Both the position numbers and the translations under genes were made by a program. Below, one piece after another: positions 285 through 22,495 of a stretch of 45,129 bases of DNA. Position 1 is the stretch's first letter, and each line of letters starts with the position of its first letter. The DNA comes from Rhodospirillales bacterium (GTDB lineage Bacteria; Pseudomonadota; Alphaproteobacteria; Rhodospirillales; CAMCUA01): the NCBI GenBank assembly GCA_947470575.1, contig CANITX010000005.1, forward strand, positions 1 through 45,129, written 5' to 3'. The notes beneath the pieces are model-generated. The model had not been told where the DNA came from. It worked only from the letters and a program-made list of their open reading frames with translations, and made no database searches.

Positions 285-360
<76 letters not shown>

Positions 361-9092: not shown

Positions 9093-9167
9093 GCCGCCGT
9101 AGCTCAGTGGTAGAGCACACCCTTGGTAAGGGTGGGGTCGAGTGTTCAATTCACTCCGGCGGCACCA
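9093..9167 (+). tRNA. tRNA-Thr (GGT)
   Basis: The plus strand gives a cloverleaf: acceptor GCCGCCG/CGGCGGC, D-arm GCTC/GAGC, anticodon stem ACCC/GGGT with loop TTGGTAA giving anticodon GGT, and T-loop TTCAATT. CCA is encoded at 9165-9167. It stands alone, opposite in strand to its neighbours. Confidence 0.96.
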
Positions 9168-15294: not shown

Positions 15295-16809
15295 TTAGCG
15301 CCGAACGATACGCCCTTCCGCAACAGGGGCAACCGCACCCAAGGTTTGGATGTAATTCATGACTGTGGTGGCCATTAGCGTCGCGCCGGATGCATCGATC
15401 AGCACTTTGCCGTTCTTAAACGATCCATAGCCATCGCCCCCGCCAGCCATATAATCGTTGGTCGCCACCCGATAGAGCTTGGCGGGGTCGAGCGGCTGGC
15501 CGCCCACCTTCGCCTCGACCACGCGCTTACCCTTATCCGCCTTGGGATCGAAAACGAAGCTCAGGCCGGAGACCTGCGGAAAGCGGCCAGCGCCGTCCTC
15601 GACCTGCGACACCCCATTCTCCAGCGCCGCCAGCACATCCGATCCCTTCACTTCGAGCAGGACGGTAACATTGCCGAATGGCAATTCGCCCAGGATGTCC
15701 TTGCGGGTCAACTCGCTACCCGCCGGATAGACCTTGTCGCCGCGCAAGCCGCCGCCATTGATGATCGCCACATCGGCATTGACGCCGGCACGCAAGGCAT
15801 CGGCGAATAGATTGCCGAGATTGGTATCGGTGGAGCGCACGCTGCCGCGCCGGGAATCAAGTTCGACCGTGGTCTTGCCAATGACAATGCCAAGTTCCTT
15901 GTCCAGGATCTTCTCATGGCGTTCGACAATGGCCTTGATGCCGGGGTCAGACGCAACCCCAGCAGTCGATATCATCCGCCACTGCGGCACGACGACCAGT
16001 TCCTTCTTATCGCCTTTGGTCACCCATTCGGCGTTGAGATCGATCGCACCCAGGAAATGCGCGTCGTAACCCGATTTATGGATCAACACACCATTCTCAT
16101 AGAACGTGATCGGATCGTGATCGTGGCCCCCGAGAACGAGGTGAATGCCCTTGACCGCTTTGGCCAGATCGCGATCGCCAGCGAGGCTCAAGTGAGTCAT
16201 CGCAACGACGATCTCGGCACCCTGACCCTGCAATGCCTTCACCATGGCCTTGGCGGTTTCGACAGGTGGCGCGAAGGTGATCGACTTGCCCGGCGAGGAC
16301 AGCACCGCCGTTTCCGGCTCCAGCACGCCGAAGAACCCGACCTTAAAACCGCCGACCTCAATGACCCGCGTCGCCTGCAAGCCGCCGGCAGGCTTGCCGT
16401 CGGGCCCTAGAACATTGGCGCCGAGCCACGGGAAGGCCGATTCGGCGAAGCGCTTGGCGGCGATGTCGGGCCCGTAATCGTATTCATGGTTACCGGGAAC
16501 GGCGACGTTGGTGCCAAGAGCGTTGTAGATCTCGATCATCTGCGCGCCCTTGGTCAACGCCGACATTACCGACGGCGAGAGCAAATCACCGCCGAAAGTC
16601 GTCACGCTCAGGGGGTTGGCCGCCCGCTCCGCCTTGAGCAGGGTCATCAACTCGGCCAAGCCGCCTTTACCGCCCTTGGGCGAAATCTCGTAGACGTCAT
16701 TGGTGTGCAAGAATGTAATTTTCGTCGGCGCAGCGATCGCCGCTGCCGCGGAGACAAGAAAATAAAGGACCACCAGACCGTGGGCGGCAGCACGTCTGAT
16801 CCGCATCAT
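15295..16809 (-). CDS. Periplasmic 5'-nucleotidase / UshA-type metallophosphatase
   Basis: The 504-residue protein has a signal peptide (about 1-27), then a calcineurin-like phosphatase domain. Its metal motifs are FLHTND, TFGGDLLSPS, PGNHEYDYG, MTHLSLAGD and GGHDHD. A C-terminal 5'-nucleotidase domain (about 320-490) follows, with NGGGLRGD and GDGYGSF. Such enzymes hydrolyse nucleoside monophosphates or UDP-sugars in the periplasm. It lies leftward, divergent in role from the rightward nucleoside uptake and salvage operon starting at 17822, which it could supply with nucleosides. The start may be the first or second Met of the MM pair. Confidence 0.92.
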   Translation of the reverse strand: MMRIRRAAAHGLVVLYFLVSAAAAIAAPTKITFLHTNDVYEISPKGGKGGLAELMTLLKAERAANPLSVTTFGGDLLSPSVMSALTKGAQMIEIYNALGTNVAVPGNHEYDYGPDIAAKRFAESAFPWLGANVLGPDGKPAGGLQATRVIEVGGFKVGFFGVLEPETAVLSSPGKSITFAPPVETAKAMVKALQGQGAEIVVAMTHLSLAGDRDLAKAVKGIHLVLGGHDHDPITFYENGVLIHKSGYDAHFLGAIDLNAEWVTKGDKKELVVVPQWRMISTAGVASDPGIKAIVERHEKILDKELGIVIGKTTVELDSRRGSVRSTDTNLGNLFADALRAGVNADVAIINGGGLRGDKVYPAGSELTRKDILGELPFGNVTVLLEVKGSDVLAALENGVSQVEDGAGRFPQVSGLSFVFDPKADKGKRVVEAKVGGQPLDPAKLYRVATNDYMAGGGDGYGSFKNGKVLIDASGATLMATTVMNYIQTLGAVAPVAEGRIVRR

Positions 16810-16890
16810 CAGATTGACCCCCTTGTATCGCCCAAAATGGGCATGACGACGATTAGGTGCGCCGCCTGCTTAGGCGCTTCGCTTGCTGAC

Positions 16891-17601
16891 CTATTTCCCC
16901 GACCAGACGCGCAACGCATCCAGCTTCATCGCACGCTGTTGCTCGGGTGTGTTTTTGTAATCATGGTTAAAAGGAGCCGATTCCCACGAACCATAAGAGG
17001 CATTGGCAATGACCAACCACTTGGTCCCCCAACAGGCCTTGTATTGATCGTAGCTTTGTACTGTATCCATCTTGTCGTCGAGCGGATAGCCGAGAGCGGT
17101 TAAGTTCTGGCGCATGGCTGCTTCCTCTTCCACGGTAAGGTTGGACACGTCGAACACGGCCACACCCTTCGATATGGCATATGTGATGAATTCGAGTGAG
17201 CCTGGCACCGCTCGGGACGTTACGCTCTTGACGAAGCTGTTCCATGTCTTCGCGTCGAAGGACTTTCCTTCTTTGACCAGCCACGCCTGATAATCCGAAT
17301 TGTCGAGCACGGTTTCATCGATATCGAGGATAACGGCCGGCGGTTTGCTCTGAAAGTCGCCGGTCTGCTCGGTAGCCGCCGTCCAATTGCGGTCCACGAG
17401 CGCACGATCCAACAGCATTTCCGCGGCCTTAAAGATTGTCACCGAATTGCCCTGGAATTCCGGCGAACCCTGATTCCACAGGACAGCGTTGGTATTGTCG
17501 TTGGGAACGGCACCTTCAAAGGCCGTAGCAGAGGCAACCATGGTCGCGGCAACGACAATGGTCAGCGCTAAGCGCAAGGGTATATTTATGATGGATTTCA
17601 T
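16891..17601 (-). CDS. e(P4)-type HAD acid phosphatase with internal deletion
   Basis: The 236-residue protein has a signal peptide (about 1-27) without a lipobox Cys. A class B/e(P4) acid phosphatase domain follows, with the nucleophile motif ILDIDETVLDNS (D93, D95) and the family's ending, here ASYGSWES and LDALRVWSGK. By comparison with the e(P4) pattern, a block of about 50 residues is missing between GYPLDDK (about 171-177) and YDQYKACWG. That block normally carries the motif III Lys and the GDNxxDF acidic pair. It may therefore be inactive, or have a changed function. The reading frame is open, with no stop. Its neighbours are another nucleotidase and a nucleoside uptake operon. Confidence 0.8.
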   Translation of the reverse strand: MKSIINIPLRLALTIVVAATMVASATAFEGAVPNDNTNAVLWNQGSPEFQGNSVTIFKAAEMLLDRALVDRNWTAATEQTGDFQSKPPAVILDIDETVLDNSDYQAWLVKEGKSFDAKTWNSFVKSVTSRAVPGSLEFITYAISKGVAVFDVSNLTVEEEAAMRQNLTALGYPLDDKMDTVQSYDQYKACWGTKWLVIANASYGSWESAPFNHDYKNTPEQQRAMKLDALRVWSGK

Positions 17602-17744
17602 GCTGCCGACCCCTCAAAGATGAAGACGAGAAGCAAGGTGGTACAAACCGCACCGATCACAATCACGACACAACTATAGTTGGCCGACGCAAATCACGAC
17701 AGAAGATTTATTCGGCTGTCCGCTTTACATGGCCTTGTTCATTG

Positions 17745-17772
17745 TTGAAGATTCGACATAGGCTGTTATAGC
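17745..17772 (+). promoter_or_regulatory. Possible sigma-70-type promoter of the nucleoside operon
   Basis: TTGAAG at 17745-17750 and TATAGC at 17767-17772 are separated by 16 bases and lie about 50 bases before the BMP protein start. A GAGGGGAG ribosome binding site follows at about 17808-17815. This is pattern matching only; no start site is known. Confidence 0.35.
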
Positions 17773-17821
17773 AGCAGCCCAACGCCATCGACCGGCCATC
17801 ACTTAGAGGGGAGCACGTATC

Positions 17822-18829
17822 ATGTCGAAGCGTATGTTTCTGGCAGCAATCATCGTGATCCTCGCAACCCCCGTGACGTCGATGGCCGTGGCAGCCGATA
17901 TCCAACCGGCCATCGTTTATGATTTGGGCGGCAAGTTCGATAAATCCTTCAACGAAGGGGTGTTCGACGGCGCCAGCGCATTCAAAAAGAACACAGGCAT
18001 CGAATACCGCGATTTCGAAATCCAGAACGACTCCCAACGTGAACAGGCACTGCGAAATTTCGCACGGCGCGGTAACGATCCAATATTGGCGGTCGGCTTT
18101 TCACAGGCCGCCGCCGTGGAAAAGGTAGCCAAGGAATTTCCCACTATTCATTTCGCCATCATCGATTCGATGGTCAACCAGCCAAACGTGCAATCTATCG
18201 TCTTCAAGGAACAAGAAGGCTCGTTCGTGGTTGGCGTGTTGGCAAGCATGGCGGCAAAGAGCGGTAAGATCGGCTTCGTCGGTGGCATGGATATTCCGCT
18301 GATCCGTCGCTTTGCCTGCGGCTATATCCAAGGGGCGCGCTACGCCAACGCCAATGTCGAGGTCTTCCAGAATATGACCGGCACGACCGGTGCCGCCTGG
18401 AGCGACCCGGTGAAGGGTGGTGAGTTGGCGAAAAGTCAATTCGACCGGGGCGCTGACGTTGTCTATCACGCCGCCGGTGGCACCGGCATCGGTGTGCTGC
18501 AAGCCGCGGCGGACGCCAATAAGCTCGGCATCGGAGTCGATTCCAACCAGAACCATTTACATCCGGGCAAGGTGTTAACCTCAATGCTAAAGCGTGTTGA
18601 CGTCGCCACCCAACAGACCTTTATGGAAGCGCGGGCCGGTACCTGGAAGCCGGGGCTCAAGGTGTTGGGTCTGAAGGAAAATGGCGTTGGTTGGGCACTC
18701 GACGAAAACAATAAGGCGCTGATCACACCTACCATGAAAGCTGCCGCCGACAAAGCCACCGCCGATATTGCCGCCGGCACAATTCAGGTCCACGACTACA
18801 TGGCTGACAACCATTGCCCCACAAAGTAA
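17822..18829 (+). CDS. BMP-family nucleoside ABC transporter substrate-binding protein
   Basis: The 335-residue periplasmic protein has a signal peptide (about 1-25, ending AVAA). The Bmp/PnrA fold includes IVYDLGGKFDKSFNEGVFDG, the AVGFSQAAAVEKVAKEFP segment, FVGGMDIPLIRRFACGY and GVDSNQNHLHPGKVLTSMLK. PnrA-like proteins bind purine and pyrimidine nucleosides. It opens an operon with ATPase, two permeases and nucleoside-degrading enzymes, which supports nucleoside uptake. No lipobox is seen, so it should be soluble in the periplasm. Confidence 0.95.
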   Translation: MSKRMFLAAIIVILATPVTSMAVAADIQPAIVYDLGGKFDKSFNEGVFDGASAFKKNTGIEYRDFEIQNDSQREQALRNFARRGNDPILAVGFSQAAAVEKVAKEFPTIHFAIIDSMVNQPNVQSIVFKEQEGSFVVGVLASMAAKSGKIGFVGGMDIPLIRRFACGYIQGARYANANVEVFQNMTGTTGAAWSDPVKGGELAKSQFDRGADVVYHAAGGTGIGVLQAAADANKLGIGVDSNQNHLHPGKVLTSMLKRVDVATQQTFMEARAGTWKPGLKVLGLKENGVGWALDENNKALITPTMKAAADKATADIAAGTIQVHDYMADNHCPTK

Positions 18830-18854
18830 CGCCCGGTCGTCTCGGATTGCATCC

Positions 18855-20419
<1,565 letters not shown>

Positions 20420-20423
<4 letters not shown>

Positions 20424-21514
20424 CGCCGGCCGCTGCCAGAGAGTTGCCGCGTTGGGCCACCGCCGGCTTGCTGCCGGTGCTAAACCTGACGGCAGCCTTC
20501 GTCGTTTCCGGGCTGGTCGTTCTGGTCATCGGCGAGGACCCGCTCAAGGTCGTCCGCCTGCTGGTGTGGGGCGCCTTCGGCTTCGAGGAAGCTATCGGCT
20601 ACACCCTCTACTACGCCACCAGCTTCATCTTCACCGGGCTGGCCGTGGCGGTCGCCTTCCATTGCGGGTTGTTCAACATCGGCGGCGAGGGCCAAGCCTA
20701 TATCGGCGGTCTAGGCGTGGCGCTGGTCTGCCTCAACCTAGACGGACTGCCGTTCTGGCTGTTGGCGCCCCTGGCGATTGCCGGCGGTGCGCTGTTCGGC
20801 GCCGCCTGGGCTTACGTGCCGGCCTATCTGCAAGCCTATCGCGGCAGCCATGTGGTCATTACTACCATCATGTTCAACTTCATTGCCTCGGCGACGATGG
20901 TCTATCTGCTGGTCAACGTCATGATCCAGCCGGGACAGATGCAACCGGAAAGCCGAGCCTTCAGCGCCGACGCCCGAATGCCATTCATGCACCAGGCACT
21001 GGCCGGAATCGGCATCGACCTCGCCGCCTCGCCGCTTAACCTGTCCTTCGTCTGGGCGCTGATCTGTTGCCTCCTGTTCTGGCTTTTCATCTGGCACACG
21101 CGCGCCGGCTATGCGCTGCGCGCCGTCGGCGCCAATCCGACGGCGGCGATCTACGCTGGCATCTCGCCTGCCCGTCAGACGATGATCGCCATGCTAATCT
21201 CGGGGGCATTGGCCGGCTGCCTCGGGCTCAACGAACTAATGGGAGTGCAGCACCGGCTGCTGCTGGAATTCACGGGCGGCTACGGCTTTGTCGGCATTGC
21301 CGTCGCGTTGATGGGACGCGGCCATCCGCTGGGCATCGTGCTGGCCGCTATCCTGTTCGGCGCACTTTACCAGGGCGGCGCCGAGCTATCCTTCGAGTTG
21401 CCGAGAATCACGCGCGACATGGTGGTGGTCATCCAAGGCCTGATCATCCTGTTCGCCGGGGCGCTGGAATTCATGTTTCTACCACTGCTCACGCGCTGGC
21501 TGATCAGGGTCTGA
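20420..21514 (+). CDS. Nucleoside ABC transporter permease (YufP-like)
   Basis: The 364-residue protein has about nine to ten membrane helices of the BPD_transp_2 family. Typical parts are GLAVAVAFHCGLFNIGGEGQ, the central TIMFNFIAS and the coupling region GYALRAVGANPTAAIYAGIS. With the next gene it forms the heterodimeric channel of the BMP/nucleoside importer. It starts inside the ATPase stop codon, so the two are coupled. Confidence 0.93.
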
Positions 21515-21523
21515 GGGCTAGGC

Positions 21524-22495
21524 ATGGAAGACGTCACCCTGGTCGTGCTGATCCTCGACTCGACCGTACGGCTGTCGGCACCCTTGGTACTGGCGGCACT
21601 GGCCGGGCTGTTTTCCGAACGCTCGGGCATCATCGACATCGGGCTGGAAGGCAAGATGCTGGGCGCCGCCTTCGCCGCCGCTGCGGCGGCCGCCCAAACC
21701 GGCTCGCCATGGGCCGGCCTTGCCGCCGGTATCGCCGTGTCGGTGGCATTGGCGCTGCTGCACGGCTTCGCCTGCATCACCCATCGCGGCAACCAAGTGG
21801 TATCCGGCGTAGCATTGAACATTTTAGCCACGGGGCTGACCGCTGTGCTGGGCATTTCCTGGTACGCCCGGGGCGGGCGCACACCGCCGCTCGGCGCCGA
21901 CGCCCGCTTTCTGCCGATAACATTGCCCGGCGCCGAGGCGGTGCGCGACGCACCGGTATTGGGCGCGCTCTACTCCGAGCTGCTGAGTGGCCATAGCTTT
22001 CCAGTCTATGTCGCCTGCCTCGCTGTACCGCTGGCCGCCTGGACCCTCTATCGCACCCGCTTTGGACTGCGGCTCAGAGCAGTCGGCGAGAACCCGCTGT
22101 CGGTGGATACCGCCGGCATCTCGGTACCCGGGCTGCGCTACCGGGCGGTGATCTGCGCCGGTATATTGTGCGGCGTCGCCGGAACCTATCTGTCAATAGC
22201 CCAGAGCGCCGGCTTCGTCCGCGAGATGACGGCCGGCAAGGGCTACATCGCACTAGCGGCGCTGATCTTCGGCAAGTGGCGGCCGTTGCCGGCGACAGGC
22301 GCCTGCCTGCTGTTCGGCCTGCTCGACGCGGTAGCCATCCGCTTGCAGGGCACGCCGCTGCCCGGCATTGGCGAGGTGCCGGTACAGTTCATCCAGGCCC
22401 TGCCCTATGTACTGACCGTCATCCTGCTGGCCGGTTTCATCGGTCGGGCAATCCCGCCAAGAGCCATCGGCATCCCATATGTGAAGGAACGCTGA
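21524..22495 (+). CDS. Nucleoside ABC transporter permease (YufQ-like)
   Basis: The 323-residue partner permease begins STVRLSAPLVLAALAGLFSE and carries IDIGLEGKMLG, NQVVSGVALNILATGLT and the coupling loop FGLRLRAVGENPLSVDTAGIS. About eight to nine membrane helices are predicted. It is 9 bases after the first permease and 2 bases before the cytidine deaminase gene, linking uptake directly to salvage. Confidence 0.93.
   Translation: MEDVTLVVLILDSTVRLSAPLVLAALAGLFSERSGIIDIGLEGKMLGAAFAAAAAAAQTGSPWAGLAAGIAVSVALALLHGFACITHRGNQVVSGVALNILATGLTAVLGISWYARGGRTPPLGADARFLPITLPGAEAVRDAPVLGALYSELLSGHSFPVYVACLAVPLAAWTLYRTRFGLRLRAVGENPLSVDTAGISVPGLRYRAVICAGILCGVAGTYLSIAQSAGFVREMTAGKGYIALAALIFGKWRPLPATGACLLFGLLDAVAIRLQGTPLPGIGEVPVQFIQALPYVLTVILLAGFIGRAIPPRAIGIPYVKER

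Follow-up and report, generated by a model that had tools for sequence, protein, structure and literature searches.

An e(P4)-type phosphatase gene without its motif III-IV block, probably in early decay, beside a 5'-nucleotidase and a BMP-type importer in a Rhodospirillales bacterium

The window analysed here is a stretch of 45,129 nucleotides from a Rhodospirillales bacterium (assembly GCA_947470575.1, contig CANITX010000005.1, positions 1 to 45,129). It contains an open reading frame (ORF) for a class C acid phosphatase of the e(P4) type, located at 16891..17601 on the minus strand, which lacks about 49 internal residues. The question raised by this locus is whether the gene is in decay, whether its product is kept for a role other than catalysis, or whether the gap is an error of the assembly. 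A preliminary description of the sequence had left two options, a non-catalytic binder or a protein that recently lost its activity.

Family assignment and extent of the missing block

The ORF encodes 236 amino acids with zero internal stops, in agreement with the open frame described earlier. It was assigned to the family by the PF03767 and TIGR01533 profiles and by alignment to relatives. The PF03767 score was 85.4 bits, which passes the gathering cutoff of 27, with the best stretch covering only profile positions 74-167 of 230. The TIGR01533 profile (e(P4) equivalog) gave 137.7 bits, which is under the curated cutoff of 216.

All parts of the ORF are on the minus strand. A predicted Sec-type signal peptide without a Cys lipobox occupies residues 1-27 (17521..17601), and was read by eye as MKSIINIPLRLALTIVVAATMVASATA. 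The sequence and the alignment place an intact HAD motif I, DIDET, at residues 93-97 (17311..17325). HAD motif II at residues 153-155 (17137..17145) reads SNL, whereas all 22 non-redundant relatives have SNR or TNR; the Ser and Asn are thus retained, and the invariant Arg is changed to Leu. The approximate deletion junction lies at residues 178-190 (17032..17070), where relatives carry about 49 additional residues, including the motif III Lys and the motif IV GDNxxDF. The C-terminal strand with its WGTKWLVIANASYGSWE ending is kept at residues 191-207 (16981..17031) according to alignment to structures and relatives, and the YGSWE within it is intact. The preliminary description was therefore right that the DxDET motif and the C-terminal YGxWE-type ending remain.

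The missing block was measured in an alignment of 46 core relatives from the class and order samples plus L007, which came from the genome contigs (47 in total, 22 non-redundant). The distance from DxDET to YGSW is 110 residues in the window ORF versus 157-161 in the 22 non-redundant intact relatives. This range comes from rows in which both patterns were read properly; three other rows were pattern artefacts, as one matched the YG pattern too early and two carry a motif I variant that the strict pattern did not recognize. Compared with the 22 relatives, 51 well-occupied alignment columns are absent from the ORF, so the earlier statement that some 50 residues with the Lys and GDNxxDF had gone in frame holds. 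Solved class C phosphatases likewise align in two pieces, with chain residues ~149-192 (2i33) or 146-200 (3et4) skipped and the gap at about residue 177 of the ORF.

Among the 22 relatives, 41 columns are invariant, of which 13 fall in the lost block, three are substituted and 25 are kept in the window ORF, meaning that 25 of the 28 invariant residues in the retained part survive. The lost ones include W203, K207, R210, R211, G225-D226-N227, G229-D230-F231 and D233 (L009 numbering), and the invariant column of the motif III Lys is inside the block. The three substitutions, Y151D, R155L (SNR to SNL) and P201A, are additional to the earlier observations. The preliminary description had named displaced motifs as the reading that would speak against it. 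Alignment ruled out a shifted form of motifs III and IV, as no GDNxxDF-like stretch or Lys context aligns anywhere in the ORF.

In the Haemophilus influenzae P4 enzyme, Asp64, Asp181 and the main chain of Asp66 coordinate Mg2+ (PMC3498132), and the alignment places the equivalent of Asp181 in the lost block. Phosphatases of the DDDD kind need both Asp pairs (PMC8475336). With the second Asp pair gone, the known mechanism should not allow catalysis, and the sequence indicates that the product is very probably inactive as a phosphatase. The removed stretch is part of the HAD core; it contains the Lys of motif III as well as the acids of motif IV, which would help to hold Mg2+. Without it, the product would be unable to carry out the aspartyl-phosphate reaction and would probably fold poorly. 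Models predicted from three aligned sequences each reached a mean pLDDT of 55.5 for the window protein and 51.8 for the intact control L007; because both are poor, they neither support nor refute folding. A Foldseek search with the low-confidence window model returned class C phosphatases at best, with a TM of ~0.5.

The locus and its relatives

The gene is flanked by a UshA-like 5'-nucleotidase on one side and by a divergent BMP-type importer on the other. The 5'-nucleotidase-like protein (15295..16809, minus strand) is downstream of e(P4) and intact, with Metallophos and 5_nucleotid_C domain profiles. On the other side, a domain profile identified a divergent BMP/PnrA-like substrate-binding protein (17822..18829, plus strand), which starts an ABC importer locus. 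Its ATPase and two permeases (18768..22495, plus strand) were recognized from their ORFs and from synteny and homology with genomes G001 and G060. Together, the genes at 15295-22495 are likely a nucleotide-scavenging locus.

The presence of e(P4) at this locus differs between genomes. An intact e(P4) occupies the identical place, with the same two neighbours, in G060, a genome from a different order within the class. The sister species of the same genus (G001) has the flanking genes in conserved order at 76-88% identity, but there the 5'-nucleotidase and BMP genes (88% identical to those of the window) are only 241 bp apart with no e(P4) between them. No e(P4) was found elsewhere in the sister genome. 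In G641, from the same order as the window genome, BMP also adjoins the 5'-nucleotidase without e(P4), and a search of the intergenic gap in G001 and G641 for an e(P4) remnant gave nothing convincing above chance. A second e(P4) copy was sought in the window's own genome and none was found. Ancestral presence of e(P4) followed by later losses is the simpler reading because its position is identical in G060; alternatively, the gene may have been gained in the window lineage.

The deletion itself was sought in the 47 core relatives (22 non-redundant) of the class and order samples, and all of them keep the block (0/47 with the deletion). The sharing of the deletion by relatives, which the preliminary description had proposed to look for, was thus not observed, and no conserved e(P4)-like subfamily with the same deletion occurs among the aligned relatives. 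Across the samples taken at class, order and phylum level, the better matches, for which both segments were reported, consist of two pieces flanking the missing block; in the phylum sample, this pattern rests on those two-segment matches. The viral scan produced one relative, in which the block is present.

Other elements were also observed in the window. A tRNA-Phe gene is located at 285-360 (minus strand) and a tRNA-Thr gene at 9093-9167 (plus strand). Positions 1-124 form the end of an element that is present in many copies: the window genome (G000) has 25 matches, mostly at contig ends. The sister genome has 19 matches, all at 100% identity, versus a genome DNA identity of ~80% along the locus. 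From position 61, the minus strand reads MGKKHGPEEVIGKLREAEIV, which may come from a transposase of the IS3 family, judging by its resemblance to that family. Genes often decay in genomes with many mobile-element-like copies such as these, and a recent mobile-element expansion would fit gene decay in the genus. The identical repeats of the two genomes may also come from contigs shared between bins.

Early decay and its alternatives

A periplasmic e(P4)/class C phosphatase gene that lost catalysis through the in-frame deletion of about 49 codons, and that is now in early decay, is the probable explanation of this locus. Decay is favoured because the deletion is private among the aligned relatives, the locus of the sister species is without the gene and motif II is further altered. 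For the same reasons, recent loss of activity is the better fitting of the two options in the preliminary description. The adjacent UshA-like 5'-nucleotidase would still dephosphorylate nucleotides for the BMP-type importer, whose substrates would be nucleosides. Through this redundancy, the e(P4) copy would become dispensable, its job probably being covered by the neighbouring enzyme, and the sister species lacks it.

The evidence on age and selection is mixed. In a tree of 23 sequences, the terminal branch of the window ORF is 0.76 versus a median of 0.22, and its retention of conserved residues is the second poorest of the 23. However, L039, in which the block is intact, has a longer branch and poorer retention than the window ORF. 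The window e(P4) has the lowest codon score and the lowest GC3 of the 16 window genes, but this signal is weak because the intact e(P4) of G060 is likewise the lowest in GC3 among the five genes compared there. Against decay, the frame has stayed open throughout, the difference in length is divisible by three, and 25 of the 28 invariant residues in the retained part survive. Neutral drift should bring in stops past about 0.1 substitutions per site, so decay must be recent. With this composition, a neutral gene would have a probability of 0.24 of staying free of stops after 0.05 substitutions per site and of 0.06 after 0.1, suggesting a recent loss or else some constraint that maintains the frame. 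G641, with the neighbours but no e(P4), also leaves a gain at the site as an alternative to loss. The literature on dead HAD enzymes yielded only unrelated pseudophosphatases.

The alternative that the product is retained in the periplasm without catalytic function, binding nucleotides or a partner, for instance to feed the BMP importer, is considerably less likely than early decay. The open frame, the signal peptide, motif I and most conserved residues are retained, the gene stands beside the importer and the 5'-nucleotidase, and stop-free survival would be improbable if the loss were old. In contrast, the deletion form occurs in no aligned relative, the sister species manages without an e(P4) gene, and the deletion took core fold elements beyond the catalytic side chains alone. 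The binder of the preliminary description has no positive support, as no conserved group with the deletion turned up, but the open frame and intact signal peptide leave some room for it. Its narrower form, a cut-down HAD-fold protein kept specifically as a nucleotide-binding or partner protein for the BMP importer, is more doubtful still.

An assembly error hiding an intact gene is improbable: although the draft is a single record in 277 contigs with 91.7% completeness, the join preserves the frame exactly, which chance alone would do one time in three, Y151D, R155L and P201A lie outside it and would not be caused by an assembly skip, and a repeat-driven collapse was rejected since the ORF, as far as it is present in the assembly, has no direct repeats.

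Early decay would make this a small but clear case in which a nucleotide-scavenging locus sheds an accessory phosphatase, with e(P4) intact in one lineage, gutted in the window genome and absent in its sister. Most likely, it is an ordinary enzyme gene caught during loss. Annotation based on motif I alone would mistake the ORF for a working acid phosphatase. Should the product turn out to be retained, its HAD fold would be unusually reduced.

Comparison with known systems

The window protein was compared with the e(P4)/class C phosphatases (PF03767, TIGR01533; PDB 3ocu, 3et4, 3pct and 2i33). It shares with them the signal peptide, the WxQxSxE N-terminal region, DxDET, the Ser-Asn of motif II and the C-terminal YGxWE. 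It differs in the loss of the motif III Lys and GDNxxDF, in SNL for SNR, in being about 49 residues shorter and in having no lipobox Cys.

Plant vegetative storage proteins are class C-like DDDD relatives that were not remarkably active on the physiological substrates assayed (PMC3498132). VSP1 retains all four Asp residues and Mg2+ binding, whereas in the window protein the second Asp pair is missing.

The nearest likeness to the deletion is an e(P4) remnant without annotation on the Salmonella plasmid NZ_CP024167 (L101:1504-1803), the only example encountered on a plasmid. Of the L101 stretch that was searched, the first half is also present in CP053580 at 99.6% identity. As in the window ORF, an in-frame loss has removed the block that separates motif II (VSNR) from the C-terminal strand. 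Unlike the window ORF, it has also lost the N-terminal half including motif I, and it is a clear remnant from an unrelated lineage. The Salmonella remnant shows that the motif III-IV block can be lost in decay and that such losses recur.
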